DNA of 49,936 bases from a virus: positions 1-49,936 of IMG/VR virus record IMGVR_UViG_3300028388_002947, one strand, 5' to 3'. Within the stretch, counting starts at the first letter, position 1; the number at the start of each line of letters is the position of its first letter. A program made the translations under genes and the position numbers. Below, in pieces: positions 2,679 through 43,728 of the stretch. Below the pieces are notes generated by a model. The model was not told the origin of the DNA. It searched no databases and was given only the letters and a program-made list of their open reading frames with translations.

Positions 2679-2866
2679 CTTCTATAAACTATGGTTTCTC
2701 CTCTACCTCCGATTCCTGCTTTCTTTCTTAGTTCTACGAGTTTTTCTCTTATGGGTTGAACCTCATCATCTTCTCTCGCAGTTCTTGTTTCATGATAGTG
2801 GTTCAATACGATTTGTTGTAATCGTATAATCTCACTTATTATTTCATTTCGCTCTTCCTTTGTCAT
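2675..2866 (-). CDS. Hypothetical helical protein, 63 aa
   Basis: Start set at the ATG at 2866 (MTKEERNEI); a longer form from 2911 would overlap hemA more deeply. The protein is a charged helical segment (IISEIIRLQQIVLNHYHETR) with a basic Gly-rich end (GIGGRGE). Its start lies inside the last codons of hemA, suggesting translational coupling. Function unknown. Confidence 0.5.
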   Translation of the reverse strand: MTKEERNEIISEIIRLQQIVLNHYHETRTAREDDEVQPIREKLVELRKKAGIGGRGETIVYRR

Positions 2867-3854
2867 AATATTTTTGTAAGAATTTGATTCCTTGATTGAT
2901 TTGGTCTTCAAACTTATCCAATCTCTCCTTCATTATTTCTTCCGCTTTGGATAGTTCTTCTTTTCTTTTCTTTAAGGTTTGGGTTTTGACCTTGGATAAC
3001 TCATCCACATTGACTAACTTTACAAAGGGTTGGTTCTTCAGTTTAGGATTGATGTTTTGTGGAACCGATAAATCCAATAGGGTTTTTTCTCCCCCTACAT
3101 CGTTTATCAGATAATCAGGTGAGTTGGTAGCCACTATGATGATATCGGAGTTTTCCACCCCTTGTTGGAGTTTTTCGTATCTACCTTTTTCAATTTTATA
3201 TTCCTCAACCCATTTATCCGTATGGGATTCAGTTCGGTTCATTAGGGTGATTTGCGAGGGGTTTACTTCTTCAAGTATATGTTTCATCGTTGAGGTTCCC
3301 ATTTTACCCGCACCTACTATTAAAATCGATTTCTCGTTCACCCCATCCACATTCTTTTTAATCCAATCCGAAGCGGCCTTCGAAACTGATACTGACCCTT
3401 TCGATATTTGAGTTTGTGTTCTTATGGTTTTGGCGATATTCTGGCCAAAGTTTATCATTTTATGGAAATATCCACCTAACTTTTTGTATTTCTCTGAGAG
3501 TTTAATCGAATCCTTAACTTGTCCTGAAATCTCATAATCCCCAAGTAACTGAGAATCAATACCACTTGTTACTTTAATGAAGTGTTCGAATCCTTCTCTA
3601 CCTTCAATAGTATAAGCTTCTTTCCGAAAAAGTTCGATATCTTCTCCACCTATTAGATTTTGTAGTTCTTCAAGGGAGTTATCAAAAGAATAGATTTCTG
3701 TTCTATTACAAGTTGAAAGAATCAAAAAATGTTTGAGATTTGACTTTTTATATATCTCTTCGATTTCTTTGGTGGTGAGAGCAAACTTGGACCGAGTTTC
3801 CACATCGGATTTCTTGTAACTTACCCCTAAAACCGTAAAAAGTTCAAATATCAT
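2844..3854 (-). CDS. hemA: Glutamyl-tRNA reductase, short form
   Basis: 336 aa. GluTR reduces glutamyl-tRNA(Glu) with NADPH to glutamate-1-semialdehyde, the first step of the C5 route to 5-aminolevulinate and heme. The N-terminal catalytic domain has the nucleophile Cys49 in STCNRTEIY, conserved His91 (HFIKVTSGIDSQ) and the LLGDYEISGQVK signature (103-114). The NADPH domain has SILIVGAGKMGTS (176-188). The spinal helix is present (about 283-320), but most of the C-terminal dimerisation domain is missing; cellular enzymes are usually above 400 aa. No partner hemL is seen here, so host HemL would have to finish ALA synthesis. The active-site residues are intact. It may feed the heme oxygenase/bilin reductase pair at 13-14 kb. 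Confidence 0.92.
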   Translation of the reverse strand: MIFELFTVLGVSYKKSDVETRSKFALTTKEIEEIYKKSNLKHFLILSTCNRTEIYSFDNSLEELQNLIGGEDIELFRKEAYTIEGREGFEHFIKVTSGIDSQLLGDYEISGQVKDSIKLSEKYKKLGGYFHKMINFGQNIAKTIRTQTQISKGSVSVSKAASDWIKKNVDGVNEKSILIVGAGKMGTSTMKHILEEVNPSQITLMNRTESHTDKWVEEYKIEKGRYEKLQQGVENSDIIIVATNSPDYLINDVGGEKTLLDLSVPQNINPKLKNQPFVKLVNVDELSKVKTQTLKKRKEELSKAEEIMKERLDKFEDQINQGIKFLQKYYDKGRAK

Positions 3855-5937: not shown

Positions 5938-5942
5938 GTCCA

Positions 5943-12602: not shown

Positions 12603-12678
12603 TGGTAGTCCATCCGGGACTCGAACCCGAGTTTCCACCGTGAAAGGGTGGCGTCCTAACCAACTAGACGAATGGACC
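12603..12678 (-). tRNA. tRNA-Glu (TTC)
   Basis: Starts GGTCCAT at 12678 and ends with encoded CCA (12603-12605). The anticodon loop CTTTCAC has TTC at 34-36; the T-loop is TTCGAGT. It closely follows the bacterial tRNA-Glu consensus. A strong Bacteroidota-type promoter lies immediately upstream. GluTR (hemA) uses Glu-tRNA, so this tRNA could also support the C5 pathway; that link is only an inference. Confidence 0.95.
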
Positions 12679-12886: not shown

Positions 12887-12917
12887 CAAATATACAAAAT
12901 TTATTTTAATTTTACAA
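12887..12917 (-). promoter_or_regulatory. Bacteroidota-type promoter
   Basis: Minus strand TTG (12915-12917), 20 bases, TATATTTG (12887-12894). It precedes the 57-aa basic protein starting at 12881. Confidence 0.75.
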
Positions 12918-13209
12918 GTTCTGCACATCTTTCATATTCTTCGTATTCTTCATAGTGAGAAATCAATCTATCTAGAGTTTCATGTATTCCATCTTTTGTA
13001 ATCACAAAATCCATAGAAACACCTTCGTATTTAGAACCTTCTATTTCTAAATCACTTTTCATAATAACTTCTAATACAAGTAGTTTATCCAAATCTGAAT
13101 CTACGAAATCAAATATTTCTTTATATAAGGTATCGTAAACTTCTGAACGATTCTCATCTATCCAATCAATGATTGCTGTATTCGGTGGTATGATTATCTT
13201 TTTATGCAT
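12901..13209 (-). CDS. Hypothetical protein, 102 aa
   Basis: Not recognised. It overlaps the bilin reductase gene end by 8 bases and so is translated with it. It is acidic, helical in the middle (SEVYDTLYKEIFDFVDSDLDKLLVLEVI) and ends EEYEEYERCAELVKLK. No metal or membrane motif is seen. Its coupling to the bilin genes makes it a candidate accessory protein, but there is no direct evidence. Confidence 0.55.
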   Translation of the reverse strand: MHKKIIIPPNTAIIDWIDENRSEVYDTLYKEIFDFVDSDLDKLLVLEVIMKSDLEIEGSKYEGVSMDFVITKDGIHETLDRLISHYEEYEEYERCAELVKLK

Positions 13210-13849
13210 TTACTTTAGGGAATAATATGTTTCTCATAAAATATCTAGCTCGTTCTTCACCCACTTTACCTTTCAAGGCTCCAAAGGTTCGTTCGTTCTG
13301 CCATTGTCTTTCACAATAACTGTTTTGATTCTGTATTATAGTTTTGATTACTTCTTCATCATCAGTTTTCCACTTATCATCATTCAACTCGTCCAACGCT
13401 TCATTGAACATTGAAAATGCTTTCAACATTAAAAGGTTGTATTCATCTTTACTTGGAACACAAGCGGCAAATCTATCTGAAAATATACCATCTGCCCAAT
13501 CTGGTAAATCATAAGGTTGAGTAAACTTTGGTGGATTCCACTCGTAAGTTTCGTAAGTTGGTGAAAAATCTAAGAATCCTGCTCCAATCACTCCTTTTCT
13601 TGGATATCCAATCAAATCAAATCCAAACATTGGAAATGTGCTATTGTGATGTGGAAATATAGTGATGTGTAAAACCATCAAATGTGGATGGAAATATCTT
13701 TCGATGTGAGCCTGTCTAAACTTTGGAGAAGTATATAAGTAGTTTTCCCAGCCCCATTCCTCTACATCCAAGGGAGTTACATCAGGTTCTTCGTTTAACC
13801 TCTGAATGAATAAATCACTATGATGGGTTATGTATTGATTCAAGTTCAT
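13202..13849 (-). CDS. Ferredoxin-dependent bilin reductase
   Basis: 215 aa from the ATG at 13849 (an upstream TTG at 13861 is less likely). The family (PcyA, PebA, PebB, PebS, PcyX, HY2) reduces biliverdin to phycobilins with electrons from ferredoxin. Visible signatures are MVLHITIFP (His61), FPMFGFDLI (Asp78, the position of the catalytic Asp of PcyA/PebS), GFLDFSP (Asp94), and the C-terminal YC..Q..N.RTF stretch with ARYFMRNILFP, matching the family end. Length is slightly under the usual 230-250 aa. The gene overlaps heme oxygenase by 32 bases, so both are co-translated. The subfamily, and so the product (phycoerythrobilin, phycocyanobilin or other), cannot be assigned by eye. Confidence 0.88.
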   Translation of the reverse strand: MNLNQYITHHSDLFIQRLNEEPDVTPLDVEEWGWENYLYTSPKFRQAHIERYFHPHLMVLHITIFPHHNSTFPMFGFDLIGYPRKGVIGAGFLDFSPTYETYEWNPPKFTQPYDLPDWADGIFSDRFAACVPSKDEYNLLMLKAFSMFNEALDELNDDKWKTDDEEVIKTIIQNQNSYCERQWQNERTFGALKGKVGEERARYFMRNILFPKVNA

Positions 13850-14354
13850 CGAAAATATCAATCATGTATTCAAATCCTTTATTTACTTCGTCCGCCCACT
13901 CATCAAGTTGTAGTTCTCTAATGGATTGAGCAGCCTCCATCATGTTTTCAAAATCATACATATGACCTGATGATGGAACTTTCTCTTTCATCATCTGACC
14001 ACCAAACATCAGTGCAAGATAGTGAAGATAGATATGAGGAAGTAAATCATCATAATCTATTTCTTTAAGATATGTTGTATATTCAAAAACACTCGATAAA
14101 AGTTGTATATCCACAGATTCAGGTTCATCCGTCATTGTAGAAACTAACTCATCAATATCTTTTTTGATAGCATCCATTCTACTCAAAGATGGATGTGGTA
14201 ATCTATCCGATTCTAATGCCGAAAATATTGTATTTTGAACCCAAAGATAGGCCAAATATTCTTTTTTAGAAAGTTCACCTTTGAACATTCTTACGTTGAA
14301 CGGCATTCTTTCTGCCTGTTTGTGTTTATCGTGAGTTGCCTCTTTTAATCCCAT
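13818..14354 (-). CDS. Heme oxygenase
   Basis: 178 aa, of the HO-1 fold. The N-terminus has KEATHDKHKQAERM with the proximal heme ligand His11, and the distal helix has YLALMFGGQMMKE, matching the GGQ kink of canonical enzymes. It would cleave heme to biliverdin IX-alpha, CO and iron using ferredoxin electrons. It is shorter than cyanobacterial HO1 (about 240 aa), as phage-type enzymes can be. It overlaps the bilin reductase gene, forming a two-gene biliverdin-to-bilin unit, downstream of superoxide dismutase. Confidence 0.92.
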   Translation of the reverse strand: MGLKEATHDKHKQAERMPFNVRMFKGELSKKEYLAYLWVQNTIFSALESDRLPHPSLSRMDAIKKDIDELVSTMTDEPESVDIQLLSSVFEYTTYLKEIDYDDLLPHIYLHYLALMFGGQMMKEKVPSSGHMYDFENMMEAAQSIRELQLDEWADEVNKGFEYMIDIFDELESIHNPS

Positions 14355-14356: not shown

Positions 14357-14917
14357 CTATTGTTTTATTGGTCTTCGACCATTTGAACTTCTACTATTAC
14401 TATTACTCCTTCTTACAGTTGAGTTTCTGTTTGAATGTGTTGGTGGTGGAGTTGTAACTCTACCTCTTGTATTTGGACGAACATAGTTTGGTTTTCTAAC
14501 CTGTGTTCGTTGTTTGTTACTTCTTCCACGATTTGGTTGAACTGTTGTTCTTCTTCTTCGAACTTCGTTTCTTCTTGGTTGATTTCTTGGTCTCCAAATA
14601 TTGTTTGGTCTGTAAATATAGTTTGGATAAACCCAAGGTGAATATGGATTCCACCACCAGTTATTTACAAACCATCTTCTGTTATAGATACCTGGATTGT
14701 ATAAATGCCAGTTATCTCTCCAATAAAAATACTCCAAGTTGAAATCATAACTTCGTGTAGTTCTATCACCAAAGTAATCCATTGGAACTTGGATAGTATC
14801 ACCTTCTTGTGTTACACCCAATACTTTATCAACTCTTGCAGAACTTGGATAGTAATAACTCAATCTACAAGATGATAAGAATATAACACTTAGTAAAAGT
14901 AATACAATGTTTCTCAT
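14357..14917 (-). CDS. Arg/Asn-rich lipoprotein
   Basis: 186 aa with a lipoprotein signal: MRNIVLLLLSVIFLSSC, the Cys at 17 being the lipidation site. The middle is rich in Tyr, Trp and Asn (FYWRDNWHLYNPG, WWWNPYSPW) and the last 75 residues are strongly basic and low in complexity (repeated Arg, Asn, Ser, Thr). It is probably bound to the outer membrane. It resembles small lipoproteins of Bacteroidota. It lies between sod and heme oxygenase with gaps of 0-2 bases. Function unknown. Confidence 0.6.
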   Translation of the reverse strand: MRNIVLLLLSVIFLSSCRLSYYYPSSARVDKVLGVTQEGDTIQVPMDYFGDRTTRSYDFNLEYFYWRDNWHLYNPGIYNRRWFVNNWWWNPYSPWVYPNYIYRPNNIWRPRNQPRRNEVRRRRTTVQPNRGRSNKQRTQVRKPNYVRPNTRGRVTTPPPTHSNRNSTVRRSNSNSRSSNGRRPIKQ

Positions 14918-15565
14918 TTATTGTTTGTTTTCGTGAAGGGCCTGAACATAGTTAGTGTTCGCTTGTTCCCAATCCAAAACCTGAAAGAAAGATTCTAACC
15001 ATCCTCCTCTGTTTGATTTGTGTTTCAAGTAATAAGCATGTTCCCAAACATCACACCCAATGATTGGAGTTTGTCCAAACATCAATGGATTATCTTGGTT
15101 TTTAGTTGTAGTGATTTGTAGATTTCCATTTTCATCTACTACTAACCATACCCAACCACTTCCAAATCGTTTGAGTCCAGCTTCCTTGAACTGATTGATA
15201 AAATCATCAATACCACCAAACTTTGTGATAAGTTTAATCTTTAACTTACCTGTTGGTTCTGTTTTATTTGGTGTAAGTAAGTTCCAAAACAAACTATGAT
15301 TGTAATGCCCACCACCATTGTTTCGAACTCCTTGTGAAAATGATTCTATATTTTTTAGGATTTCTTGAATAGGTTTACCAAGATTTGGAGTTCCTTCAAG
15401 TTCTCCATTTAACTTATTTACATACCCTTGATGATGTTTTGTATGATGCTCAATCATAGTTTCTTCATCAATCACGGGTTCTAAATCATTATACTCATAT
15501 GGAAGTTGTGGTAGTTCGAACTGATTACCATCTTCCATTTCTAAAAATTCTTTCAAACTTTTCAT
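14918..15565 (-). CDS. sodA: Superoxide dismutase, Fe/Mn family
   Basis: 215 aa. It converts superoxide to O2 and H2O2. Metal ligands are visible in HHTKHHQGYV (His), GGGHYNHSLFW (His) and DVWEHAYYL (Asp and His). GGH before NHSLFW and NQD before the last motif point to the Mn-type subclass. There is no signal peptide, so it is cytosolic. It sits in the operon with heme oxygenase and bilin reductase; protection against oxidative stress from free heme, iron and pigment chemistry is a plausible reason. Length is normal. Confidence 0.93.
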   Translation of the reverse strand: MKSLKEFLEMEDGNQFELPQLPYEYNDLEPVIDEETMIEHHTKHHQGYVNKLNGELEGTPNLGKPIQEILKNIESFSQGVRNNGGGHYNHSLFWNLLTPNKTEPTGKLKIKLITKFGGIDDFINQFKEAGLKRFGSGWVWLVVDENGNLQITTTKNQDNPLMFGQTPIIGCDVWEHAYYLKHKSNRGGWLESFFQVLDWEQANTNYVQALHENKQ

Positions 15566-16953: not shown

Positions 16954-16983
16954 CAAATATAGTGATTTTTTATTCAATATCAA
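16954..16983 (-). promoter_or_regulatory. Bacteroidota-type promoter (bilin operon)
   Basis: Minus strand TTG (16981-16983), 19 bases, TATATTTG (16954-16961), 20 bases before the ATG at 16934. No terminator-like hairpin was seen between here and 12901, so it may drive the whole sod/heme oxygenase/bilin reductase operon. Confidence 0.7.
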
Positions 16984-30461: not shown

Positions 30462-31628
30462 TTATACGAGTTTTTCTGTATAGTAAGGAGTATCTATTTT
30501 TCCAAGTTGGTCTTGATACTCATTTATCCTATCAATAGTAATCTCAATATCACCAATCTTGAACTTACCCACCTCTCCACTATCTTTGATGATATGAGGT
30601 AGTTGTTGTAATACATTTATAGTATCATTGGTGATTTTGTTTCCATCAATCCTTACTTTTATATCAGAATCTGGTGAGGTAAATGTAGATATCTTTTTCG
30701 ATAAGTCAAACAGAGTATTGGGTTGTTCTAAGTTGATATAATCATCTACTTGTTCTTGTGTTAAATCTACATTGATGTGGTCACAAAGTGGTTCAAGAAC
30801 TGAGAGTGTAAGTTGAGTTGCGTTAAACAAACGATACTGAATATCATACTTTGGTGGAACTATTGGATGCTGGAACTCATCGTTTTGTATCCAAGTTCCC
30901 CACTTTCTTAGGTAGTTTCTTTGTGCTCTATTTGTAGCAGCCTTGAAGTAATCATCATCTTTACCTATTTCTTCTGTCCAACGATGTCCTCTACAAGTCA
31001 AGTGATATACAAAAGCATCTCGTGATTGGATAAGTTCATATCCACTAAGAATCCATCTTTGGAAAATATCACTATCTTCAAATGGGAATGGAGCAAAGAT
31101 TGGGTCATGTCCTCCCATTTCTTGGAAATCCTTTTTGTAGATTATCCAAGGAGCAAACATACCTTTTGTGGTTTGACCTTCAAAGGTAAACTGATTCTCT
31201 ACACAAAAAGTTTCGAATGAATCAATATCAAGTGTATCGAAATCCATTCCAAAATCCTTGATTATCTTTTCTTTTCCTTCTGGATGTAAAGGTGGTTCTA
31301 CTCGTGTTCCACAAACTACTGTTCCCTCTTTCAAATGTTTTAATACATTTTCAGTATAGTTAGGTCCAATAATCATATCGGCATGAAGAATACCAACTAT
31401 ATCGTTTGTAGCAAGTTGTATTCCTTTATCATACAAAATAGTGTGCCCAACTCGTGTTGGTGATTGGTAAGAAATAACATCTTGTTCTTGAATCCACTCC
31501 CAAGTTCCATCTGTGGAAGCATCATCAAGTAAGATTACTTCTGATTCAGGTGAGTTTCTTTGGATTGAATCGTAAACATTTTTTAAATGTCTTAGATTGT
31601 TGTGTGAAGGAATAATGTAACTAATCAT
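30462..31628 (-). CDS. GT2 glycosyltransferase, 388 aa
   Basis: MISYIIPSHNNLRHLKNVYDSI and VILLDDASTDGTWEWI are typical GT-A family 2 starts; the DxD-like HADMIIGPNY follows. The C-terminal 130 residues are an extra domain without clear homology. It probably adds sugars to a cell-surface, DNA or virion glycan. It leads, in transcription order, away from the glycan cluster, next to virion genes. Confidence 0.85.
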   Translation of the reverse strand: MISYIIPSHNNLRHLKNVYDSIQRNSPESEVILLDDASTDGTWEWIQEQDVISYQSPTRVGHTILYDKGIQLATNDIVGILHADMIIGPNYTENVLKHLKEGTVVCGTRVEPPLHPEGKEKIIKDFGMDFDTLDIDSFETFCVENQFTFEGQTTKGMFAPWIIYKKDFQEMGGHDPIFAPFPFEDSDIFQRWILSGYELIQSRDAFVYHLTCRGHRWTEEIGKDDDYFKAATNRAQRNYLRKWGTWIQNDEFQHPIVPPKYDIQYRLFNATQLTLSVLEPLCDHINVDLTQEQVDDYINLEQPNTLFDLSKKISTFTSPDSDIKVRIDGNKITNDTINVLQQLPHIIKDSGEVGKFKIGDIEITIDRINEYQDQLGKIDTPYYTEKLV

Positions 31629-31629
31629 A

Positions 31630-32493
31630 TTATATTTGGTAAGATTTAATAAAGTTTATTGCTGCAATACTTGATTTCATTTCGTATTCTTTGAAAAGAC
31701 CATCACTTCTTTTAGCTTCTGTGTTAGTTCTTTTCAATGGGTGGCCGTAGTTATGTCCTTTGATTCTTGTTTTAACCACATATTGTGGAATGTGTTTCAT
31801 ATTAAATACAGTTTCTGCACAATAATCTTCTCGAACAAAGTGCATATCTTCTGGTATAAATGGAAAATCAATACCTCCTGATAAACACAATAGAGAACCA
31901 TCTACTTTTACTACATTGTTTTGGTGTATCTCAATATCAAACTTATCATTAAACTCATTTACTTCTTTTTGTGTGATTACATCTGATGAGTTATATGGTT
32001 TAGGTGCTTGATATGGATTTTCTTCTGTTCGTGGATACTTTACTAAATCTTTATGTTCTACACAATCCCAACTATCATCCCACATCTTTCTACTTGCAAA
32101 TGAAAGTAGGTGTGGTGGTTCGAAGTTTACTTCTGAAAGTATGTAAAAGAAGTCTTTTGGAAGTAAACAATCACTCTCTCCCCAAACTGTGTATTTGTAT
32201 TCTTTATCGTAAACTTCTCTTCTCCAATCACCAATGTTGTAGAATGGGTCTTTATCAGTTTTCTTTACGATTTTCGCCTTTTTCATTATTGGATGATTGA
32301 TAAACTCTTTGAACATATCTTCAGCCTCTCCTTCAATAGGCTTTTCAAGTTCTGTTTGTGAGTTTAAACAAAACCATAAATCTACTTCTAACTTAGAGTT
32401 TTTGAGTGCTTCTTGTAGTGAATCAAGTGTTTCATTTAACATCTTTGATTCATACCACATAATGTGTTGTTGATAAAGAATCTTATTTTTCAT
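31630..32493 (-). CDS. Glycosyltransferase-like protein, 287 aa
   Basis: Resembles a GT-A type enzyme (KYTVWGESDCLLPKDFFYIL has a DxD-like acidic centre), with a late CAETVFNMKHIPQYVVKTR segment. Less typical than its neighbours. It overlaps the upstream GT2 gene by 11 bases. Confidence 0.65.
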   Translation of the reverse strand: MKNKILYQQHIMWYESKMLNETLDSLQEALKNSKLEVDLWFCLNSQTELEKPIEGEAEDMFKEFINHPIMKKAKIVKKTDKDPFYNIGDWRREVYDKEYKYTVWGESDCLLPKDFFYILSEVNFEPPHLLSFASRKMWDDSWDCVEHKDLVKYPRTEENPYQAPKPYNSSDVITQKEVNEFNDKFDIEIHQNNVVKVDGSLLCLSGGIDFPFIPEDMHFVREDYCAETVFNMKHIPQYVVKTRIKGHNYGHPLKRTNTEAKRSDGLFKEYEMKSSIAAINFIKSYQI

Positions 32494-33226
32494 ATTCGTA
32501 GTTTTGTGCTTCTTCTCGTAAATCTATTAAATCTTGCAATCTACCAATCTTTTGGAAAAAGGTAACCATTCCTCTTTCAGCATACTGATTATAGTTTTTG
32601 ATTATATCATCATCTTGGTTTTTCTGAACTGTGGCATTTGATAAGTGTATTGCAGGTGCAAAATCTACCACACCACATTTCCAACCTTTTTCTCTACAAA
32701 TAAGACCTGAATAAACATCGTTACCCCAACCAAAAATCAAATCATCATCAAACTGTTTGATTTCTTCAATCAAATCTCTATGGATAAGTGGACATTGAAA
32801 GTCAATCCAAGGAACATCACGAGTTTCGGTTGATTGCCAGTTGTGCATTGTTGGCCAGAAACATTGGTTCTTTTCAGGTTGCATAACCGCTGGTGAAATA
32901 ATCTTGTAATCACTTTCGAACATTTCTTTTCTCAAAGTTTTTACAAAGTTATAACCATGGACTATCAAATCTGAGTTTAGAAATAAAAGAGAATCGTATT
33001 GTGAATTATCTAATACAAGTTGCATCGTCATATTTAATCCACCACCAAAGTAAACATTTTGAGGAGAACGATAAGTTGTATTCAAACTCCTACCTTCTTC
33101 AGGTGAACCATTATCCAAAACCACTAAATCGTAATCTTCTCTTTCGTATGGTTTGAGTTGTCCAAATAACCTATCGGTCATTTCAGGTGTGTTGTAATGT
33201 AATATTACTGCTAAAGTTTTACCCAT
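32483..33226 (-). CDS. GT2 glycosyltransferase, 247 aa
   Basis: LAVILHYNTPEMTDRLFGQL, LVVLDNGS and SLLFLNSDLIVHG give the nucleotide-binding and DxD regions of a family 2 enzyme (rhamnosyltransferase-like). It overlaps both neighbours by about 8-11 bases and belongs to the glycan operon. Confidence 0.85.
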   Translation of the reverse strand: MGKTLAVILHYNTPEMTDRLFGQLKPYEREDYDLVVLDNGSPEEGRSLNTTYRSPQNVYFGGGLNMTMQLVLDNSQYDSLLFLNSDLIVHGYNFVKTLRKEMFESDYKIISPAVMQPEKNQCFWPTMHNWQSTETRDVPWIDFQCPLIHRDLIEEIKQFDDDLIFGWGNDVYSGLICREKGWKCGVVDFAPAIHLSNATVQKNQDDDIIKNYNQYAERGMVTFFQKIGRLQDLIDLREEAQNYEYEK

Positions 33227-34064
33227 TTTTCTTAAAATAATCTACAATTTTGTCAAACATATCATTAGTTTGAATTAACTGATTTTTTTCTTGGTTTATA
33301 AGGTCTTCTCTTAACTTATAAACATTTTTAGAGTTTTCAATATCTTCCAACCCATAACAAACTCCATATCTTTGAGTTGGTTGCTTTCTTTTAAACTCTT
33401 CTGCACTTATTCCATTAACAGGAACTATAATAGTTTCACATCCACATAAAGCTGAAATGGTGTTAGTGTAACTATCGTTATCATATGTATAATATCTTTT
33501 ATAAGTGTTAAACATATCAAGGTATTCTTTAGGACTAAATGTATTATTTCCTATAAAAACAGAATCATCTTCATGATATTCTTTAGATACATGGTCATAA
33601 TCAGCTATTTTCCTACGAGAATAAGCAGATTTATTATTTCTTTCTTTTCCTAAATCTTTATAAAAATCAACCATCGTATCAAAAATAGTAAGTATATTTT
33701 TTGGTTTCATTTCATCATAAAAAGCTTCTGTATAATAAATCCAAAAGTCTTTTTTATCCCATGTCTTATATTTGTTTCTAACTTTATTATAAAATAGTAT
33801 ATACCTTACACACTTTTTCATTTTATATGGGTTACCACTTACTATTTCTGGATAAACTATGATATCTTTATCTTTATCAACTTCACCAATTGTTATATTT
33901 TTCGTGTTAAAATTTGGATTAAGATTAATGCCTTTCCCATTACCGGTAAAGTTAATCATATAGGAATCGAAGCCAACCTCATTTAATACATGACAAAGTT
34001 TATGGAGTGCTATAATACCACCCCATTTAGTTTCATATCCTGGTGCTGCAATAATAATTTTCAT
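33219..34064 (-). CDS. GT-B-like glycosyltransferase, 281 aa
   Basis: Starts MKIIIAAPGYETKWGGIIALHKLCHVL, as in GT-B enzymes, and has YTNTISALCGCETIIVPVNG, resembling the sugar-nucleotide-binding C-terminal domain. The donor-binding ExG motif is weak. It overlaps the DUF2061 gene by 4 bases. Confidence 0.65.
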   Translation of the reverse strand: MKIIIAAPGYETKWGGIIALHKLCHVLNEVGFDSYMINFTGNGKGINLNPNFNTKNITIGEVDKDKDIIVYPEIVSGNPYKMKKCVRYILFYNKVRNKYKTWDKKDFWIYYTEAFYDEMKPKNILTIFDTMVDFYKDLGKERNNKSAYSRRKIADYDHVSKEYHEDDSVFIGNNTFSPKEYLDMFNTYKRYYTYDNDSYTNTISALCGCETIIVPVNGISAEEFKRKQPTQRYGVCYGLEDIENSKNVYKLREDLINQEKNQLIQTNDMFDKIVDYFKKNG

Positions 34065-34279
34065 TTGTCTATTTTTTTATTAAGTCCAAATCTCGAAAAC
34101 TTATACCAAGCTCGTTCATGAAGAAAATAAAGAACCATTTTGGTGATTACCTCAACTCCACCAATAGTCAATCCAAGTTTCCAAGAACCTGTAATCAAAC
34201 CAGATAAAATCATTGTATCTAATGTTCCTATGATTCTCCAAGTAATAGTTTTTACTAAATGTCTTTTTACTGAAACCAT
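34061..34279 (-). CDS. DUF2061 membrane protein
   Basis: 72 aa. VKRHLVKTITWRIIGTLDTMILSGLITGSW and the HERAWYK end match DUF2061, a small two-helix membrane family found in bacteria and some phages, sometimes beside sulfate-activation genes. This fits the APS kinase and sulfotransferases elsewhere in the window. Function is not established. Confidence 0.85.
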   Translation of the reverse strand: MVSVKRHLVKTITWRIIGTLDTMILSGLITGSWKLGLTIGGVEVITKMVLYFLHERAWYKFSRFGLNKKIDK

Positions 34280-35014
34280 TTATATTAATGTATCTTCGTT
34301 TTTCTTTTCTAGTTTTTCTTCCAAGAATCCCCTTTCATATTTATTTTCACCTGCTAAATGATAATATTCATTATAAGGATTACTTCTTACATATTTTACA
34401 GTATATGAACCATAGTCTATTATATTTTGAAGTAATAGTTGTCCTAATAATATTGAGTATTTTGGAAATGGCTCTAATTTACTTCTTTCACTAAGTGCTA
34501 TTTCTTTGACTAGGTTATACTTTGATATATATTCATTCAAAAGCTTTTGATTAAAAAACTTTAATATTCCTATGTTTGATACATTTCCTGACTCGGAATA
34601 AAAATCTATATATTTTGAAAACTTAAACTTTTTAGCAGGCTCATAATCGTTTTTATACCATTCATCTCTTATACTTTCAGGTCTTTCAGCATATAAATCA
34701 CAATCACTTGATATTCTAAGTTCTTTATACAAAAAAACATCAGGATCTATCAAAATTTCATTTTCTAATATATGTGGTAATACTGATATTTTTATATCAT
34801 CGAGAAATCTTAACTCACCAAAATCATATATTTGTTTTTGAACACCAATATCATCTAAAAAATTTATAGTGTTTTCATCAGTTATTATTCTGATATTATG
34901 AAACCTAGATGCTAACTCAACAGATTTTTTAAGTGAATACAAAATATTTTTAAAATTTTGTTCATTCTTAGATAATCTTTTGGTAAAACAATATACTAAG
35001 TTCCACCTATTCAT
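34280..35014 (-). CDS. Glycosyltransferase-like protein, 244 aa
   Basis: NLVYCFTKRLSKNEQNFKNILYSLKKS followed by ENEILIDPDVFLYKEL, where DPD may be the metal-binding DxD. The overall form is a GT-A like enzyme, but no exact family. It overlaps the next upstream gene by one base. Confidence 0.6.
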   Translation of the reverse strand: MNRWNLVYCFTKRLSKNEQNFKNILYSLKKSVELASRFHNIRIITDENTINFLDDIGVQKQIYDFGELRFLDDIKISVLPHILENEILIDPDVFLYKELRISSDCDLYAERPESIRDEWYKNDYEPAKKFKFSKYIDFYSESGNVSNIGILKFFNQKLLNEYISKYNLVKEIALSERSKLEPFPKYSILLGQLLLQNIIDYGSYTVKYVRSNPYNEYYHLAGENKYERGFLEEKLEKKNEDTLI

Positions 35015-36018
35015 TATAGTAAACCTTCTTCTCGCATTTTTTCTCTAATAGATGTTGCAGATATTTCTCCTATTTCTTTTGGAGGAACGTGCTCGATAAT
35101 ATCATATCCAACACCACGACCATAATTAATTGATTCAATATCTGGTATAATAGTTGGTAGAACCTTACCATCTTCAATAAGTTCTTTAAGTGGTCCTTCT
35201 TTTACCATCTCCAAAACTTCTTCCGCAGTCCAAGGATTCTTTTCATCTGGTTTTACATCTCTGATTCCTAACCAAACATTATATCCTTCTTTTAATCTTT
35301 CGTTGATAAGCCACAAATGACCTTTGTGTAGTGGTTGCCATCTTCCTGCGAAGAATGAATATTTCTTTTCGGTTGATGAACTTTCTTTGTCTGCTTTTGC
35401 TTTAAATTCTGTCATTTTTTTTGTTTTATTTGAGTGTAAAAAATTATTAAATCTGGTTTTTATACCTAAAAAGTTTTGAAAGTTTTGATATGCATACTGA
35501 GATGATAAGTTAAGTATTAAAAAGTTTGGGTTACCTAAAAAGTATCGTATAACATCTTCATTATGTTTTCTATAAAAAGATTTGAACTTTTCTTCATTAT
35601 ACGGGTCATCTTCTGTTACTCCATATATTTTTTGATGTAAATCCCAAACAGAAAAGTTTTGTATAGTCCAGCTTTTTAACTGACTTATACTAGGAAGTTT
35701 TCCTCTAAATAGTTGTTTGTGCCATCTTATAGTTGATTGATACCACTCATCTTCACTATTTCTAACTGATAAAATAAACTTTGCATCAGGATACTTTTTA
35801 TGAAGTGTTTTATACAAGTTTGGCAAAGAAAAGGGTATATCTTGAAAGAAATCATGCTCTTGACACATATCAGCTATTTCTTCGTATTTTCCTTCCTTAT
35901 AAATTGGAAATAATCTTTCAAAATCTTCTTGATGTGGAACATTGAACCCCAATCTTACAAATTCATGATATAAACTTGTTGTTCCTGTTTTATTTGCCCC
36001 TATACAAAATACCTTCAT
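35014..36018 (-). CDS. Sulfotransferase-nucleotidyltransferase fusion
   Basis: 334 aa. Residues 1-190 resemble sulfotransferases: FCIGANKTGTTSLYHEFVRLG is the PAPS 5'-phosphosulfate loop and KFILSVRNSEDEWYQS the 3'-phosphate region. Residues about 220-334 are an HxGH nucleotidyltransferase: FFAGRWQPLHKGHLWLIN and GEISATSIREKMREEG (ISAT motif). I know of no common fusion of these two. It may make an activated sulfated compound, or the two halves may act separately in one pathway. PAPS could come from the APS kinase at 25405. Confidence 0.78.
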   Translation of the reverse strand: MKVFCIGANKTGTTSLYHEFVRLGFNVPHQEDFERLFPIYKEGKYEEIADMCQEHDFFQDIPFSLPNLYKTLHKKYPDAKFILSVRNSEDEWYQSTIRWHKQLFRGKLPSISQLKSWTIQNFSVWDLHQKIYGVTEDDPYNEEKFKSFYRKHNEDVIRYFLGNPNFLILNLSSQYAYQNFQNFLGIKTRFNNFLHSNKTKKMTEFKAKADKESSSTEKKYSFFAGRWQPLHKGHLWLINERLKEGYNVWLGIRDVKPDEKNPWTAEEVLEMVKEGPLKELIEDGKVLPTIIPDIESINYGRGVGYDIIEHVPPKEIGEISATSIREKMREEGLL

Positions 36019-36020
36019 AG

Positions 36021-36743
36021 TTATATTGTTCCTGAATCCACAAACAGATTTTGTCCTGTAATAGATTCTGATTTATCTGATATTAAAAAGTTTATAGTTT
36101 CTGCAACTGATTCTTTACTTGTTTCTTTTTTTAAAGATGTTCTTTTGTATATTCTATTCTTTTGTTCACTACTTAAAGTATCACTCATATTGGTTTCCAT
36201 AAATCCACAAACTATACAGTTCGAACGAATACCCATCTCACCCCATTCTCTGGCAGTGTTTTTTGAAAAAGCCTCTAAAGCTCCTTTAGTAGATGCATAC
36301 ATTGATAATCCTTTATATCCTGTATGGACACTTATACTTGAGATGTGTATAATACTTCCATTGTTTTTATTAAGTATAAAGTTTCTCAAAATAGATTTTG
36401 TAATCATTATTGGATTTAAAACATTTGTTTTAAACATAAAATCCAACTTATCAAAGTTTGCATTTGTAATGATATCATCGTATGCTACCGCTGCGTTGTT
36501 TACAAATGAATCAAACTTTATTTTATTCTTCAAAATATACTTATTCAAATCTTTAACAGATTCTTCTAAACTCAAATCGTATTGTAAGTGTATAAATGAA
36601 TCTGTAAACTTGGATTTTATTTGTTCAACTTCATCATTAGATGTTCTACTTATTCCATAAACAGTATTACCATCTTCTAACAAGTTCTTTAATATAACAA
36701 GTCCTAATCCTTTTGATACTCCTGTCAATAAAATAGTTTTCAT
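36021..36743 (-). CDS. SDR oxidoreductase (FabG-like)
   Basis: 240 aa. TILLTGVSKGLGLVI is the TGxxxGxG NAD(P) motif, FVNNAAVA the NNAG-like strand, and ISSISVHTGYKGLSMYASTKGALEAF carries Ser and YxxxK. Closest by form to 3-oxoacyl-ACP reductases. It is grouped with an ACP, an AMP-ligase and an acyltransferase, suggesting reduction of an ACP-bound acyl group before transfer to a sugar. Confidence 0.85.
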   Translation of the reverse strand: MKTILLTGVSKGLGLVILKNLLEDGNTVYGISRTSNDEVEQIKSKFTDSFIHLQYDLSLEESVKDLNKYILKNKIKFDSFVNNAAVAYDDIITNANFDKLDFMFKTNVLNPIMITKSILRNFILNKNNGSIIHISSISVHTGYKGLSMYASTKGALEAFSKNTAREWGEMGIRSNCIVCGFMETNMSDTLSSEQKNRIYKRTSLKKETSKESVAETINFLISDKSESITGQNLFVDSGTI

Positions 36744-37693
36744 CTTCTTAGTATTTTACCTGTTGAGTTTGTTTCTATATTATCAACAATGTTTATTTTA
36801 AGTGGCATTTCATATGAAGTAAGATGTTCTTTTAAATCTTGTTTTATCTTACTTTTATCCACACTTTGATTTAAAACTACATCACACATAACCACATTAC
36901 CCATAACAGAGTTATTTTTGGAATAAACAACTGAGTTTTTGATGTAATCAAAAGAGTTTACTACATTTTCTACTTTAATAGGATTTATCTTAACCCCACC
37001 AACATTAATCATATTAAACTCTCTACCAATAATCTGAAACTTAGTATCATCAATCATTTCCACTACATCACCCGTATCTTTCCACCCATCTTGATTGACA
37101 AAAATACGATTATTTTCTATCTTTACTAATATACTATTTTTTTCTGATATTTCAAAATAATAATCATTAGAAGAAAACAAGGTTCCAAACTCTGTAAGTG
37201 CGTATATATTTGTTATATTGGCACTTGGAAATGATTTTTTAAGTTTATCTATTAGAGATTTACTTACAACCTCACCACCAAGAGTTATTTGTTTTACTTT
37301 ATTAAAGATTTCATTTCCTAAAAATAATCTATAAAATGTAGGTGTTGCTGATATGTGAGTTATATTATGTTTAGTTATTAGTCTTGTTATTTCTTCTTTT
37401 GTTTTACCAAACAGATTTACAACTTTACCATTATTAAGATAAGATTGTAAAATAACTTGAGAACCTGCTATCTTTTTGTAATCGTAAGTTAATCCCCAAA
37501 CTACATTTGAAAGGTTATCACTTATTTTTATATTTTTAGTTAGTGATTCAAATGTGTGATTTATATATTTAGGTTCACCTGTTGTGCCCGATGTTTGAAA
37601 AACAATATCTTCTTTATTGTCAACCTTTTCAATAAAATCTAAAATACCCAAATCTGTTTCAGATTCTGTATTATTTAGAAGAAAGTTATCCAT
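36740..37693 (-). CDS. Short AMP-dependent acyl ligase
   Basis: 317 aa. Core motifs are present: FQTSGTTGEPKYINHT (A3), NIYALTEFG (A5), KDTGDVVEM (A7), GREFNMINVGGVKI (A8) and TGKILRR (A10 Lys). The N-terminal about 150 residues usual in acyl-CoA synthetases are missing. It probably activates a short acyl group as acyl-AMP and loads the neighbouring ACP. It overlaps the ACP gene by 8 bases and the SDR gene by 4. Confidence 0.85.
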   Translation of the reverse strand: MDNFLLNNTESETDLGILDFIEKVDNKEDIVFQTSGTTGEPKYINHTFESLTKNIKISDNLSNVVWGLTYDYKKIAGSQVILQSYLNNGKVVNLFGKTKEEITRLITKHNITHISATPTFYRLFLGNEIFNKVKQITLGGEVVSKSLIDKLKKSFPSANITNIYALTEFGTLFSSNDYYFEISEKNSILVKIENNRIFVNQDGWKDTGDVVEMIDDTKFQIIGREFNMINVGGVKINPIKVENVVNSFDYIKNSVVYSKNNSVMGNVVMCDVVLNQSVDKSKIKQDLKEHLTSYEMPLKINIVDNIETNSTGKILRR

Positions 37694-37907
37694 TTATCTT
37701 TTTTTCAATATCAGCAACTGTTGATACCATTCCATCTTCAAACACATCAACTCCATACTCATCCTCGATTAAAACAGTCAATAGGGCAAGATTCATAGAA
37801 TCCATACCCAAATCATTTCTTAAATCTGTTTCACTTGTAATAGATTCTACTTGAGAATCTGAATCAGATAATACTTCATTTATTATTTCCAATAAACTTC
37901 TTTTCAT
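37686..37907 (-). CDS. Acyl carrier protein
   Basis: 73 aa. DLRNDLGMDSMNLALLTVLIEDEYGV contains the DSM motif with the Ser for phosphopantetheine. Acidic, four-helix form, normal length. Start overlaps the acyltransferase gene by 32 bases. It would carry the acyl group in the cassette; the host must supply the phosphopantetheinyl transferase. Confidence 0.88.
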   Translation of the reverse strand: MKRSLLEIINEVLSDSDSQVESITSETDLRNDLGMDSMNLALLTVLIEDEYGVDVFEDGMVSTVADIEKKING

Positions 37908-38436
37908 AATCTAAAAATCGTTTTAATCTATTTCCTATTTTTTTAGCTGGTATTCCAAAGTAAACGCCAAGTTCATCACAATCTTCCTTTATCAAAGTTT
38001 GGGAGTATATTGAACTACCCATACCAATAGTAACATTTGGAAGTATCACACTTCCCACTCCAATAATAGTGTGTTTTTTGATATGAACTTTACCATTGGT
38101 TACTTTTTTAAACTCATTTGGAATCATTGGATTTGTCATTGACATTCCTGTATAATCATCCGAACTACTATAAATCGATACTCTACCAGAAATACCAACA
38201 AAATCCTCAAGGATTATTTCACCCTTTCCAATAATCGATGAGTAGCAAGCGATATGAACATAGTTACCTATCTTTAAAGAAGTAGATGGTGATAATATAG
38301 TAAAATCATCTATTCTAACATTACTACCTATTTCAATATTTTGAGGTGAGTATATAGAACATTTATCAGATATGAGAACATTCTCACCAACTGATTTGAA
38401 ACCTATGTTTTCTATTTCTTCTTTAGATAAAAACAT
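37876..38436 (-). CDS. Hexapeptide-repeat acyltransferase
   Basis: 186 aa. Repeating hexapeptides (for example IEIGSNVRIDDFTILS, LPNVTIGMGSSIYSQ) form a left-handed beta-helix; a His near the middle (VHIKKHTIIGVGSVI) may be catalytic. The family (WbbJ/VioB/PglD-like) transfers acyl groups to amino sugars. Here the donor may be the neighbouring acyl-ACP. Confidence 0.85.
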   Translation of the reverse strand: MFLSKEEIENIGFKSVGENVLISDKCSIYSPQNIEIGSNVRIDDFTILSPSTSLKIGNYVHIACYSSIIGKGEIILEDFVGISGRVSIYSSSDDYTGMSMTNPMIPNEFKKVTNGKVHIKKHTIIGVGSVILPNVTIGMGSSIYSQTLIKEDCDELGVYFGIPAKKIGNRLKRFLDYEKKFIGNNK

Positions 38437-38439
38437 ACT

Positions 38440-39081
38440 CTATTGTTTATACACATCAAACTTACTTAAATCAGGATAAGGAAGTTCTAAATCTTCATTT
38501 TGTTTTTTATTTCCATTGGTATCGTAAAACTGATTCATAAGAAGAACTCCTCTTGCTGCAAGTTCTGGCATCATATAGAAGTTCCATCCTATCATATCAA
38601 AATGGTCATCGTGGTAAGACATTTCTCTTCTACCACTATATCTTGCTCGCTTGAACCAAAGATATGCATCATAATCATCAGTTAAGATTGCTCCACCTTT
38701 GGATAGTTTGAAATGTTTGTAAGGGCCTGTAAAAGATACACACATATGTGTATTTGGTTTATACATATCTGCAGTAAAAGTAAGTGCAGAATCCCATACA
38801 TTGGAACCTTTAAGTTGATACGCACCTTTAATAGTCTTACCCTCAATAGGTTCAAAATCAACTTTTAATCCAGCATGAATAATCTCACAAGGAACTGATG
38901 GATAAGTTCTACTTGGAATAGTAATAACTTCTTCAGTTCTATTTTTTACTTTGTTTTCGTAATAAAGTGCTAAGAATAAACCATTACTCATATTATCAAC
39001 AGTTACAACATATTTTGCACCTGTGTATTGTCCTAGTTTTTCTTCAAACTCTTCTGTTATTTTGTAGATTCCGTTTGCCAT
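38440..39081 (-). CDS. Short DegT-family sugar aminotransferase
   Basis: 213 aa. TVDNMSNGLFLALYY and EVITIPSRTYPSVPCEIIHAGLKVDF follow the DegT/DnrJ/EryC1 fold, and SFTGPYKHFKLSKGGAILTDD contains the PLP-Lys region. Full enzymes have about 370 residues, so the C-terminal domain is missing or reduced. It may aminate a keto sugar whose amine is then acylated. The short length makes activity uncertain. Confidence 0.75.
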   Translation of the reverse strand: MANGIYKITEEFEEKLGQYTGAKYVVTVDNMSNGLFLALYYENKVKNRTEEVITIPSRTYPSVPCEIIHAGLKVDFEPIEGKTIKGAYQLKGSNVWDSALTFTADMYKPNTHMCVSFTGPYKHFKLSKGGAILTDDYDAYLWFKRARYSGRREMSYHDDHFDMIGWNFYMMPELAARGVLLMNQFYDTNGNKKQNEDLELPYPDLSKFDVYKQ

Positions 39082-39082
39082 A

Positions 39083-39904
39083 TTAATATTTTTCAGTTGG
39101 ACTAAAGTTAGATTGAAGAACTATCCCCATATAGTTTTTGGAGAACATTTCCTCTGTATATCCTTGTTGTTTGTAAAAATCATATTGTGGTTTAAAGTGA
39201 AATACTTTAAATAAGGGTTGAATAGGAACAATATCAATCGGTCTAGACTTTAAAAGAAACTCACCATACCAAGTAAACTCAGAAGGAACCATTTTTATTA
39301 TTTCAGAAATATCCAACTCTTGTGGCTTTAACTGTGTTTCATACAATAGTTTCCATACTGTTGATGACCATATAGTTGGTGAGGGGCCAAAATCATATAA
39401 CCTACCCTCTCTTTGAAACATTTTCATTATTTTACTTCTATCATCACCAAATCCTATTTGAGGGTCATGACCTATGTGTTCATGATATCTTGATGTAAAC
39501 TCAAACAACTCTTTTTGTTCATGCATTACTGTATAAGGAGTTATATCATTATACATAAAATCTGAAACATAAAAGTCTTTAATGAAATATGAATCTGAAT
39601 CAATACACACATAGTTTTCACAAATATCAAGTTTCCAAAAAGAAGATTTAACGATTTGTTGTAAATACCAACCTATTTGTCTTTGTTCTTCTTGAGTATA
39701 TTCAAACTCAATAATATCTTCATCTACTATTAAGTTTACATATTCAGTATCTAAGTTATCTTTGAAAAGCTTTTCATCAACTTTTGGAACTGATATGTAA
39801 AATGGTATATTATCTTTATTATACTGTTTTACAGATTCTACTAATCTTTTTATTCTATGTAAATCATTATAATATGTCTTACAATAAAGAACTATTTTTT
39901 CCAT
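39083..39904 (-). CDS. DUF6492-like glycosyltransferase
   Basis: 273 aa. IVLYCKTYYNDLHRIKRLVESV, then QQIVKSSFWKLDICENYVCIDSDSYF with a DSD motif, and a late EFTWYGEFLL segment match DUF6492-type glycosyltransferase-like proteins. Part of the glycan operon; overlaps the next gene by one base. Confidence 0.72.
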   Translation of the reverse strand: MEKIVLYCKTYYNDLHRIKRLVESVKQYNKDNIPFYISVPKVDEKLFKDNLDTEYVNLIVDEDIIEFEYTQEEQRQIGWYLQQIVKSSFWKLDICENYVCIDSDSYFIKDFYVSDFMYNDITPYTVMHEQKELFEFTSRYHEHIGHDPQIGFGDDRSKIMKMFQREGRLYDFGPSPTIWSSTVWKLLYETQLKPQELDISEIIKMVPSEFTWYGEFLLKSRPIDIVPIQPLFKVFHFKPQYDFYKQQGYTEEMFSKNYMGIVLQSNFSPTEKY

Positions 39905-40749
39905 TAATCAAAATCTTTAATCATTCCATATTCATCAAAAACAGGTGGTCTACCCCATTTTTGAATCCACTTTTGTATATTTTTTTGTTCTGATTTTATT
40001 TGTCTTTCAGAACTTTTACCATCGTTTTCCTCTAATCTATGTGAACCTCGTGCTCCAAAGTGCCAAACAACTGATGAAGATGGTAGAATAAATCTAAATC
40101 CATTTTGTAACATTCTTAGGAATAAATCCATATCATCATAAGATGCCGGTGCAAATAGTGGGTCATTACCCCCTATTTCATCCCAATGTTCTTTTTTGAT
40201 TAGTCCACTTACACCCTCACCTTTTGGGATTTCGAAATCGTTTTCTTTTTTAAACATTTCTACCCACTTATCAAAGGTATCAGATATAAAATCGTGGTGG
40301 TATGCACCAAACATATCTTTAGGCACCACCACAGTTCCCCATCTACCTTGTGAGTTTGGAAACATCTGTGGTTCTACTCTATGTGAGTTTACCCATAGTT
40401 TTTCGTTTGGGTATTTTTCGTAAACTTTTAGTAAGTCCAAATCCCAATCTTTGGTTACATAGAAATCTGAATGAAGGAACATAATGTATTCAGTCTTTAC
40501 TCTTTCTGCACAAAAGTTCATTCCACCACCAATACCAATAGGTGATTCGTTTTTATCTATGAAATATTCAAGATTGTATTTTTCTGAGTTTTGTTCTAAC
40601 CACTCATCCGTTCCATCATCACAGTTTTCAGCATGAATGATGAAGGGTGCATCTTTGAAGTGTGAGTTTTTTCGAACACTATCTACTGCAATCTTTAGGT
40701 ATTCGAGATTGTTATATGTTGATATACAAAATGTTAGTGGTGAACTCAT
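39904..40749 (-). CDS. GT2 glycosyltransferase, 281 aa
   Basis: LTFCISTYNNLEYLKIAVDSV, IIHAENCDDGTDEWL and EYIMFLHSDFYVTKDW show the family 2 motifs. A late HWDEIGGNDPLFAPASYDDMD region is also typical. Overlaps the groES-like gene by 4 bases. Confidence 0.87.
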   Translation of the reverse strand: MSSPLTFCISTYNNLEYLKIAVDSVRKNSHFKDAPFIIHAENCDDGTDEWLEQNSEKYNLEYFIDKNESPIGIGGGMNFCAERVKTEYIMFLHSDFYVTKDWDLDLLKVYEKYPNEKLWVNSHRVEPQMFPNSQGRWGTVVVPKDMFGAYHHDFISDTFDKWVEMFKKENDFEIPKGEGVSGLIKKEHWDEIGGNDPLFAPASYDDMDLFLRMLQNGFRFILPSSSVVWHFGARGSHRLEENDGKSSERQIKSEQKNIQKWIQKWGRPPVFDEYGMIKDFD

Positions 40750-41051
40750 TTTTTAACTACTCCAAGTAATTGATGTTCGTGAAATAATAAATACTTTTCT
40801 TCTCCAATCTCAATAGGTGAACCCGCCATATCATGTTCATACATAATAGTATCACCAACTTGAACCGTCATTGGGATTCTTGCACCTGATTGTGAAAAGA
40901 TACCTGTTCCAATAGATACAACTTCTCCATATACTCTTGCACCTCTTTGTGCCGTATCAGTAAGAATCAATCCACTTTCAGTTTTCTTTTCACCAAGTGA
41001 TTCTGGTTTGATTAGGACTCTATCTCCTAATGGTTTAAATGTTCCTTCCAT
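40746..41051 (-). CDS. GroES-like co-chaperonin
   Basis: 101 aa, normal length for Cpn10. FKPLGDRVLIKPE at the start, GEVVSIGTGIFSQSGARIPMTVQVGDTIMY with the mobile loop before it (KKTESGLILTDTAQRG), and KYLLFHEHQLLGVV at the end are diagnostic. Phage GroES proteins (as T4 gp31) redirect host GroEL to fold capsid protein. No GroEL gene is seen here. It is placed oddly among glycosyltransferases. Confidence 0.93.
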   Translation of the reverse strand: MEGTFKPLGDRVLIKPESLGEKKTESGLILTDTAQRGARVYGEVVSIGTGIFSQSGARIPMTVQVGDTIMYEHDMAGSPIEIGEEKYLLFHEHQLLGVVKK

Positions 41052-41054
41052 AAC

Positions 41055-41684
41055 TTATAATGTTTCGTAATATTCGTTTTGTTTTTCTTGTCTTTCAATA
41101 TCTTTTGGGTGTTTGAGGGCAAATATCTCCTCTGTTGGTAAAATAGTCATTGTGTTGTATCCAACGATTCGTTCATGAACTTTACCTACCCACTCTATTT
41201 CAGAAGTTCTTCTGTATATTCTTGTTTGAACATCTGGCCAGTTTATCCAACCTTCTTCATTTAGTTGCCATCCCCACTTTTTAACGTGCTCACTTGTCAA
41301 ACCTTTTACTGTATTTACTCTTGGAACAAAGAACAAATCTACTTCTTTGTTGGCCTCTAAAAGGTCTCCCATATTTGTTACCAAGTATTCATGTGGTATT
41401 TCATCTGCATCTATTTGGAAAATAAAAATACCTTGTGCATGATTCTTTAGGTTATTTTTAAATGATGCAAAATCATTGTTGAGAGGAAATCCTATTACAG
41501 ATACTTGTTGATTTAGTTGAGATACAATATCTAAGTAAGATTTTACTTCTTTAGTTACACCATCTTCATCATACTGAATGAGAATATCATCTTCACTACG
41601 AAGTTTTGGTAAAAGGAAATCTACCAATCTTGTTATTTCTTCTAACTCATTACAAACTGTAATCGCATAAGTAACATTTATCAT
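41055..41684 (-). CDS. GT2-like glycosyltransferase, 209 aa
   Basis: NVTYAITVCNELEEITRLVDFL and GIFIFQIDADEIPHEYL (DAD) fit a family 2 catalytic domain. Ends with WVGKVHERIVGY and LKHPKD, as in WaaE/KdtX-like enzymes. Lies between groES and a phage-type gene. Confidence 0.82.
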   Translation of the reverse strand: MINVTYAITVCNELEEITRLVDFLLPKLRSEDDILIQYDEDGVTKEVKSYLDIVSQLNQQVSVIGFPLNNDFASFKNNLKNHAQGIFIFQIDADEIPHEYLVTNMGDLLEANKEVDLFFVPRVNTVKGLTSEHVKKWGWQLNEEGWINWPDVQTRIYRRTSEIEWVGKVHERIVGYNTMTILPTEEIFALKHPKDIERQEKQNEYYETL

Positions 41685-41690
41685 AATCTA

Positions 41691-43171: not shown

Positions 43172-43728
43172 TATTTTACTTTTTCTAGTTTTGGAAGTTT
43201 AAATGGAACTACTTTTGGTTTTTCTTTAACATATTTCGTGATAATGTCAATAAATATCTCATTCATTTTGTCCAAAGAGAAGTTTTTGACAATATTTGAT
43301 TTTAAACCTTTTGATTTTTTTGTGTATTGTTTATAGTTTTTAAATACATCAAAAATAGTATTTGCTGCCTTCGAATAGTTTACATTAAACCATTGTGATT
43401 CTTTCATTAAAAACTTATCTGCAGCACTCTCATGGACATTTTGTAAATCACCCTCCAAATATAAAGTCTTATCTTCAGGTAAAAAATCAAGATGACCACT
43501 CCACTTTGATACAATAATAGGTTTATCAGTCAGTGCAAATTCTGCAAGTGGTCTACCATACCCCTCTCCTTTGGTAAATGAAATCATAGATTTAACTTTA
43601 GGATGGTGATATAGATTTGCTAAATCATTTTCTGATAAATCACCATGTAGTAAGTAAATAGGTGGACATTTTTCTCCAAATGATTCTGTGATTCTATCAA
43701 TCTTTTCTCTAATACTTTCTCTATCCAT
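43171..43728 (-). CDS. GT4 glycosyltransferase, C-terminal fragment
   Basis: 185 aa from the ATG at 43728; the frame is open up to a stop at 43801-43803. It has YLLHGDLSENDLANLYHHPKV and SFTKGEGYGRPLAEFALTDKPIIVS, the donor-binding ExG-type region of GT-B family 4. The codons before the ATG (SLPKNQQPGLIVKTSSAGFSV) also look like coding sequence. It appears to be the second half of the gene whose first half is 43793-44344. Confidence 0.75.
   Translation of the reverse strand: MDRESIREKIDRITESFGEKCPPIYLLHGDLSENDLANLYHHPKVKSMISFTKGEGYGRPLAEFALTDKPIIVSKWSGHLDFLPEDKTLYLEGDLQNVHESAADKFLMKESQWFNVNYSKAANTIFDVFKNYKQYTKKSKGLKSNIVKNFSLDKMNEIFIDIITKYVKEKPKVVPFKLPKLEKVK

Follow-up and report, generated by a model that had tools for sequence, protein, structure and literature searches.

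The stretch of DNA analysed here, hereafter the window, comprises 49,936 nt (positions 1 to 49,936 of IMG/VR record IMGVR_UViG_3300028388_002947). An earlier note, made from the sequence alone, had read a heme oxygenase (HO) gene followed by a ferredoxin-dependent bilin reductase (FDBR) gene, and this pair is borne out by Pfam, by AlphaFold models and by fold matches. The two genes do overlap, as that note had stated, by 44 nt if the FDBR starts at TTG (from which residues are numbered below) or by 32 nt if it starts at the alternative ATG at 13849. HO precedes FDBR, and spacing and promoter place both in a run of about ten genes from 16934 to 12901, which is probably co-transcribed.

16954..16983, minus strand: Bacteroidota-type promoter TTG-N19-TATATTTG, 20 bp before the run that holds SOD, HO and FDBR
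14918..15565, minus strand: Fe/Mn superoxide dismutase (SOD) of the same run (PF02777, 1.2e-35; PF00081, 2.2e-29)
14357..14917, minus strand: lipoprotein-like gene between SOD and HO, read from its sequence, signal ending LSSC, no Pfam family
13818..14354, minus strand: predicted heme oxygenase (PF01126, HmuO/HO-1 fold, alignment)
13202..13861, minus strand: ferredoxin-dependent bilin reductase with a PcyA-type active site (PF05996, PcyA fold, triad, tree)
12901..13209, minus strand: small protein adjoining FDBR, with a homologue directly downstream of the FDBR of G656, a 271-kb relative (tblastn 32%, E 1.7e-10)

The nearest relatives of the SOD, at ~52%, are mostly from Bacteroidota. No SOD match was found beside the cassette at the relatives' loci, and SOD was rejected as a constant part of it. 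On many contigs with PcyA-type FDBRs, HO is immediately preceded by a RyR-domain gene (L137:5525-6094 and 15 other loci), and a plant-type 2Fe-2S ferredoxin, which the window's clade lacks, lies ~2 kb downstream at L022, L054, L084 and near-identical loci with cyanophage-type PcyA. The DUF454 membrane protein at 23141-23548 of the window is 79% identical in G656 and is also present at the HO-FDBR loci L151 and L152.

A PcyA-type reductase and a heme oxygenase without the distal aspartate

The FDBR matches Pfam Fe_bilin_red (PF05996) at E 4.6e-26, with 92 bits against a cut-off of 31, and the top PDB match of its AlphaFold model (pLDDT 96.8) is PcyA (TM 0.84, E 2e-15); the models of FDBR and HO were made from the window and related-locus sequences. 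Its Glu54, His65 and Asp82 align with Glu76, His88 and Asp105 of Synechocystis PcyA. Asp82 is the aspartate of the MFGFD motif pointed out previously, and this conserved residue is thus retained. PcyX has Asp55 at the position of Glu54, which rules out a PcyX identity, and the curated NCBIfam PcyA equivalog was the best among the FDBR models, yet at 91.9 bits it stays below its cut-off of 206. Glu76 is specific to PcyA, where the reduction of the 18-vinyl group depends on it (PMC10151467). Phage CB_2 has an FDBR without the PcyX Asp55, and this enzyme produces phycocyanobilin (PCB) (PMC11480375). Because the whole triad is kept, we predict from the sequence that the product is PCB, not the phycoerythrobilin of the PcyX type.

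In a tree of 118 FDBRs, from which alphaproteobacterial PcyA, CB_2 PcyA and bacterial pre-PcyA were left out, the window FDBR falls inside an 18-member viral clade (SH-aLRT 98), all members of which carry the Glu-His-Asp triad. This clade, the outcome of a check suggested in the earlier note, lies outside the PcyX clade and is separated from cyanobacterial and cyanophage PcyA with a support of 100; the exact place of the window FDBR within it is unsure because of a long end branch. HO is directly upstream of FDBR in 17 of the 18 members, the last one beginning at a contig end, and the overlap is likewise kept in 17. More than 550 FDBR relatives came out of each IMG/VR scan, and the HO-FDBR pairing is seen in hundreds of contigs. 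A single protein query found no FDBR relatives in IMG/VR, an alignment of all FDBR types reached only 36% identity, and a tighter alignment reached 46%, the closest FDBR (46%) being on contig L090. A search of 396 Bacteroidota genomes yielded no FDBR, and a genome scan that used only two short FDBR patterns yielded no bacterial relative. Bacteroidota are not known to produce PCB, a blue-green pigment, themselves. In near relatives (the L102-L107 group) dN/dS is 0.04-0.12 for FDBR and 0.2-0.39 for HO, indicating purifying selection on both.

The HO matches Heme_oxygenase (PF01126; E 3.8e-14, 53 bits against a cut-off of 23), and its model (pLDDT 94.9) has HmuO and HO-1 as top matches with a TM of ~0.8. 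The proximal His11, invariant across 96 aligned HOs, and the GGQ motif are present as first described, with one correction: the residue before GGQ that is Asp140 in HO-1 is Leu. In place of the distal network (Asp140 and Arg136 of HO-1, Asp136 of HmuO) the protein has Leu115 and His111, and the Asp position is occupied by Leu, Ile or Met in every HO-bearing member of the clade. The distal Asp is missing from 34 of 50 HO partners of PcyA-type FDBRs as against none of 38 partners of PcyX-type FDBRs, all 38 of which keep it; we make no statistical claim for this link, since the tree holds only four changes and one independent pair. The residue is missing, too, from HOs encoded next to flavobacterial phytochromes.

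These replacements, together with the loss of the distal Arg across the clade, raise the idea that its HOs are no longer heme oxygenases and instead serve as heme- or bilin-binding partners of FDBR, and human HO-1 with Asp140His indeed has a much lower activity (PMC7948506). However, plant HO-1 is active without the same Asp and Arg (PMC7948506), the phytochrome-neighbor HOs are without the Asp as well, and His11 is invariant. Moreover, HO was found in 32 of 297 Bacteroidota, and in a host without it such an FDBR would have no biliverdin to act on. We therefore regard a non-enzymatic role as improbable. The window protein is likely, not certainly, an active heme oxygenase, the doubt coming from the missing canonical Asp and Arg. 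A subfamily of this kind offers a natural experiment on HO chemistry.

Glutamyl-tRNA reductase and the C5 pathway

Besides the missing distal Asp, the earlier note had overlooked a second feature, a gene for the first C5 enzyme towards 5-aminolevulinate (ALA).

2844..3854, minus strand: glutamyl-tRNA reductase (GtrR/HemA) without the dimerisation domain (Pfam, PDB, motif)
12603..12678, minus strand: tRNA-Glu (UUC) (ARAGORN)

GtrR matches GlutR_N (1.4e-31) and Shikimate_DH, the NADP domain (1.7e-23), its PDB matches are glutamyl-tRNA reductases (1gpj at 4e-31), and the catalytic motif STCNRTE is present with its catalytic Cys. The C-terminal dimerisation domain gave no match at E 0.01 in this 336-aa protein; the GtrRs of L090 (321 aa) and L274 (337 aa) are equally short, and that of L277 has 393 aa. 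The tRNA-Glu(UUC) is of the kind that GtrR uses once it is charged, so that the two genes may be connected. Two genes away from GtrR, at 4312-5943, lies a radical SAM protein with a B12-binding domain. Its best NCBIfam model is BchE at 137 bits against 481, making it a distant relative only, and it has weak homologues on the FDBR contigs L127 and L134.

A scan of IMG/VR with two phage GtrR queries found five loci. On the L090 contig HO, FDBR and GtrR are consecutive genes, GtrR following FDBR after 18 nt, and G656 and G657 show the same GtrR match and carry all three genes. Thus, HO and FDBR accompany GtrR on at least three of the five viral contigs found to bear it, from at least two phages besides the window; the two further contigs show GtrR alone and may be fragments. 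Conversely, only L090 among 50 other FDBR contigs has GtrR, and since most HO-FDBR relatives lack it, an ALA supply does not belong to the cassette as a rule. Hits to GtrR in the phage collection were set aside, as they resemble bacterial contigs that had been entered as phage, some of them 1.6-3.7 kb long. An AlaS-type cassette in the window was rejected: AlaS was found in none of 46 related or reference records, and the long window ORFs that were scanned belong to other families. In the literature searched, which lay outside subscription journals, no paper described a phage GtrR together with HO-FDBR. GtrR makes the arrangement a C5-pathway version of a phage cassette already known.

A distance of 9.3 kb separates GtrR from the HO-FDBR pair in the window, and the gene is remote from the pair in G656 too. 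Such spacing, like the many HO-FDBR phages without GtrR, would be expected if GtrR sustained respiratory heme, as has been proposed for phage AlaS, and HO-FDBR were a separate valve for heme homeostasis with the bilin as waste. The 18-nt gap in L090 and the presence of HO and FDBR on most of the GtrR-bearing contigs speak against this separation, and we consider it unlikely.

The co-occurrence of the three genes suggests instead that tetrapyrrole is made for the bilin, and it bears on a further explanation, in which HO frees iron from host heme and FDBR merely clears the biliverdin. A role in supplying iron has been considered for HO-FDBR pairs of phages (PMC11480375), and HO is the sole iron-releasing step. 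However, FDBR would consume reductant beyond what the release of iron calls for, and the same phages would build heme by way of GtrR just for breakdown. Pure scavenging becomes less likely because GtrR would feed new heme, and heme that is made and then cleaved gives back only the iron invested. We judge iron or heme salvage as the whole purpose to be rather improbable.

Host and phage type

The identification of the DNA as that of a T4-like phage of Bacteroidota, also made previously, is strengthened by promoters, scarce Shine-Dalgarno sites, gene matches and the backbone of a relative.

30462..46511, minus strand: glycosylation cluster common to Flavobacterium phage immuto and Mel-JY01 (several genes, 42-79% identity)
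47727..48176, minus strand: T4-type clamp loader A subunit (gp62; PF16790 at 6e-6, just above the cut-off)

The promoter TTG-N20-TATATTTG has seven exact sites where 0.06 would be expected, and every one of them is on the coding strand. When spacers of N18-20 are allowed, six of eight sites are located 11-27 bp ahead of the start of a gene or tRNA. A Shine-Dalgarno-like site precedes only one of 57 genes. Immuto matches 14 window genes (up to 79%) and Mel-JY01 11, and two each are matched by P-SSM4 and by Mosig, of which 17 kb were read. The likeness of the backbone to immuto was tested through G656, in which 43 of 84 window ORFs find a match (up to 84%) and the terminase, capsid, portal and tail sheath are of the immuto type; homologues in G656 were found for 62 of 128 immuto ORFs versus 11 of 93 P-SSM4 ORFs. 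The host very probably belongs to Bacteroidota, and likely to Flavobacteriia.

The other origin to be weighed is a cyanophage whose cassette serves phycobilisomes. FDBR genes are best known from cyanophages, and the window encodes a CobS-like protein 57% identical to that of Mel-JY01, which was deposited as a Microcystis phage. The FDBR tree contradicts this origin, however, as do the two matches to P-SSM4 against 14 to a Flavobacterium phage, the Bacteroidota-type promoters, which Mel-JY01 also has, and the immuto-like backbone of the close relative G656. We reject a cyanophage source as very improbable.

Several observations concern these relatives. Mel-JY01 itself (PP395634.1; L006-L009) appears to have a Bacteroidota host, to judge from its promoter motif, its immuto-like genes and a 'major paralogous domain' gene. 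The CobS-like AAA ATPase (window 19516-20703) is 71% identical in G656, and its CobT/VWA-like partner (20802-22847) is 49% identical in G656 and 31% in Mel-JY01. A SET-domain protein at 7153-7605 (4e-7), unusual for a phage, has a homologue in G656, and L293 (G656:180001-200000) holds 24 tRNA genes and a tmRNA within 6 kb.

Possible benefit and relation to known systems

Our main reading, to which we give a probability of roughly two in three (0.68), is that the window is a fragment of a T4-like Bacteroidota phage carrying both ends of a tetrapyrrole-to-bilin route. The reading of the earlier note stands with three supported refinements: the PcyA-type site, the loss of the canonical distal Asp from HO, and GtrR. 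In the proposed route, GtrR would reduce Glu-tRNA(Glu) and so drive the host C5 pathway towards heme, HO would open heme to biliverdin, CO and Fe2+, and FDBR with host ferredoxin would reduce biliverdin to PCB with four electrons. The gene identities, folds, triad, joint occurrence of the three genes and type of host are results of the analysis, and the enzyme activities, PCB as the product and the flux through GtrR are inferred. We consider this biochemical prediction a good one.

Phage bilin genes have so far been explained by cyanobacterial light harvesting. What such genes do in phages of non-phototrophs is a recognized puzzle (PMC11480375). Tentatively, at about one chance in three, we favor a benefit in which the reduced bilin and CO buffer redox and heme stress in the infected cell, FDBR also drawing biliverdin off HO. 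The SOD of the same run lends weak support, weak because the relatives have no SOD at that spot. Against our main reading we count that GtrR is 9.3 kb off and could serve another purpose, and that the phage has no known partner to bind the bilin; among hosts, globin-like proteins of the bilin-binding kind exceeded the cut-off in only 3 of 297 cases. Somewhat more doubtful is a broader version, in which a C5 tetrapyrrole-to-bilin module with an Asp-less HO yields a bilin, possibly another isomer or product, for a general non-photosynthetic purpose. HO-FDBR is found in phages whose hosts are unrelated, a Pelagibacter phage among them, and this points to a general role.

Light sensing, one of the uses listed in the earlier note, would mean that the cassette alters which chromophore a host phytochrome carries: it could provide PCB, or it could take biliverdin away and thereby disable a phytochrome of the biliverdin type. 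Phytochromes are present in 27 of 297 Bacteroidota and, within one order, in 50 of 248 genomes, frequently with an HO as neighbor, and PCB from a phage PcyA can load the phytochrome Cph1 (PMC11480375). The flavobacterial phytochromes that were read, however, have the PAS Cys of the biliverdin type and no readable GAF motif with a PCB-holding Cys, so PCB is not their native chromophore, and this weakens the idea of supply. Most hosts are also without a phytochrome, and HO-FDBR occurs in a Pelagibacter phage as well. A phage-borne phytochrome was rejected, none being found among the 46 related or reference phage records. Altogether, light sensing appears a poor candidate, and we return to redox or heme stress as the favored benefit. 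Support for the host lineage is good, with a cultured Flavobacterium phage close by, no FDBR turned up in 396 genomes of the host phylum, and with three genes in hand the question of bilin use becomes testable.

The pairing of HO and FDBR in phages of non-phototrophs has precedents, including Pelagibacter phage Mosig. Flavobacterium phage vB_FspM_immuto shares the T4-like backbone (via G656) and the glycosylation cluster, and no HO, FDBR or GtrR match was found in the 150 kb of it that were compared. Cyanobacterial and cyanophage PcyA have the fold and the Glu/His/Asp triad in common with the window FDBR, but they are only 22-31% identical to it and form a separate clade (support 100), and the cyanophage PcyA genes examined have no HO directly upstream. 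Bacterial pre-PcyA proteins (PMC10151467) are likewise FDBRs of non-photosynthetic organisms, but lack Glu76 and His88. The marine HO-PcyX pair (PcyX_EBK42635, Pelagibacter phage Mosig) also consists of an overlapping HO and then an FDBR of the same broader viral group; PcyX, however, carries Asp where the window FDBR has Glu, and its partner HO keeps the distal Asp. Closest in design is the AlaS-HemO-PcyA/X cassette of CB_2 and other phages of non-phototrophs (PMC11480375), which likewise combines an ALA-forming enzyme, HO and an FDBR of the PcyA/X type; phage CB_2, one of the methanotroph phages, carries hemO and pcyA (PMC11480375). There the ALA step is that of AlaS (Shemin), whereas in the window it is that of GtrR (C5 pathway), and the Bacteroidota host and the HO without the distal Asp are features of the window.
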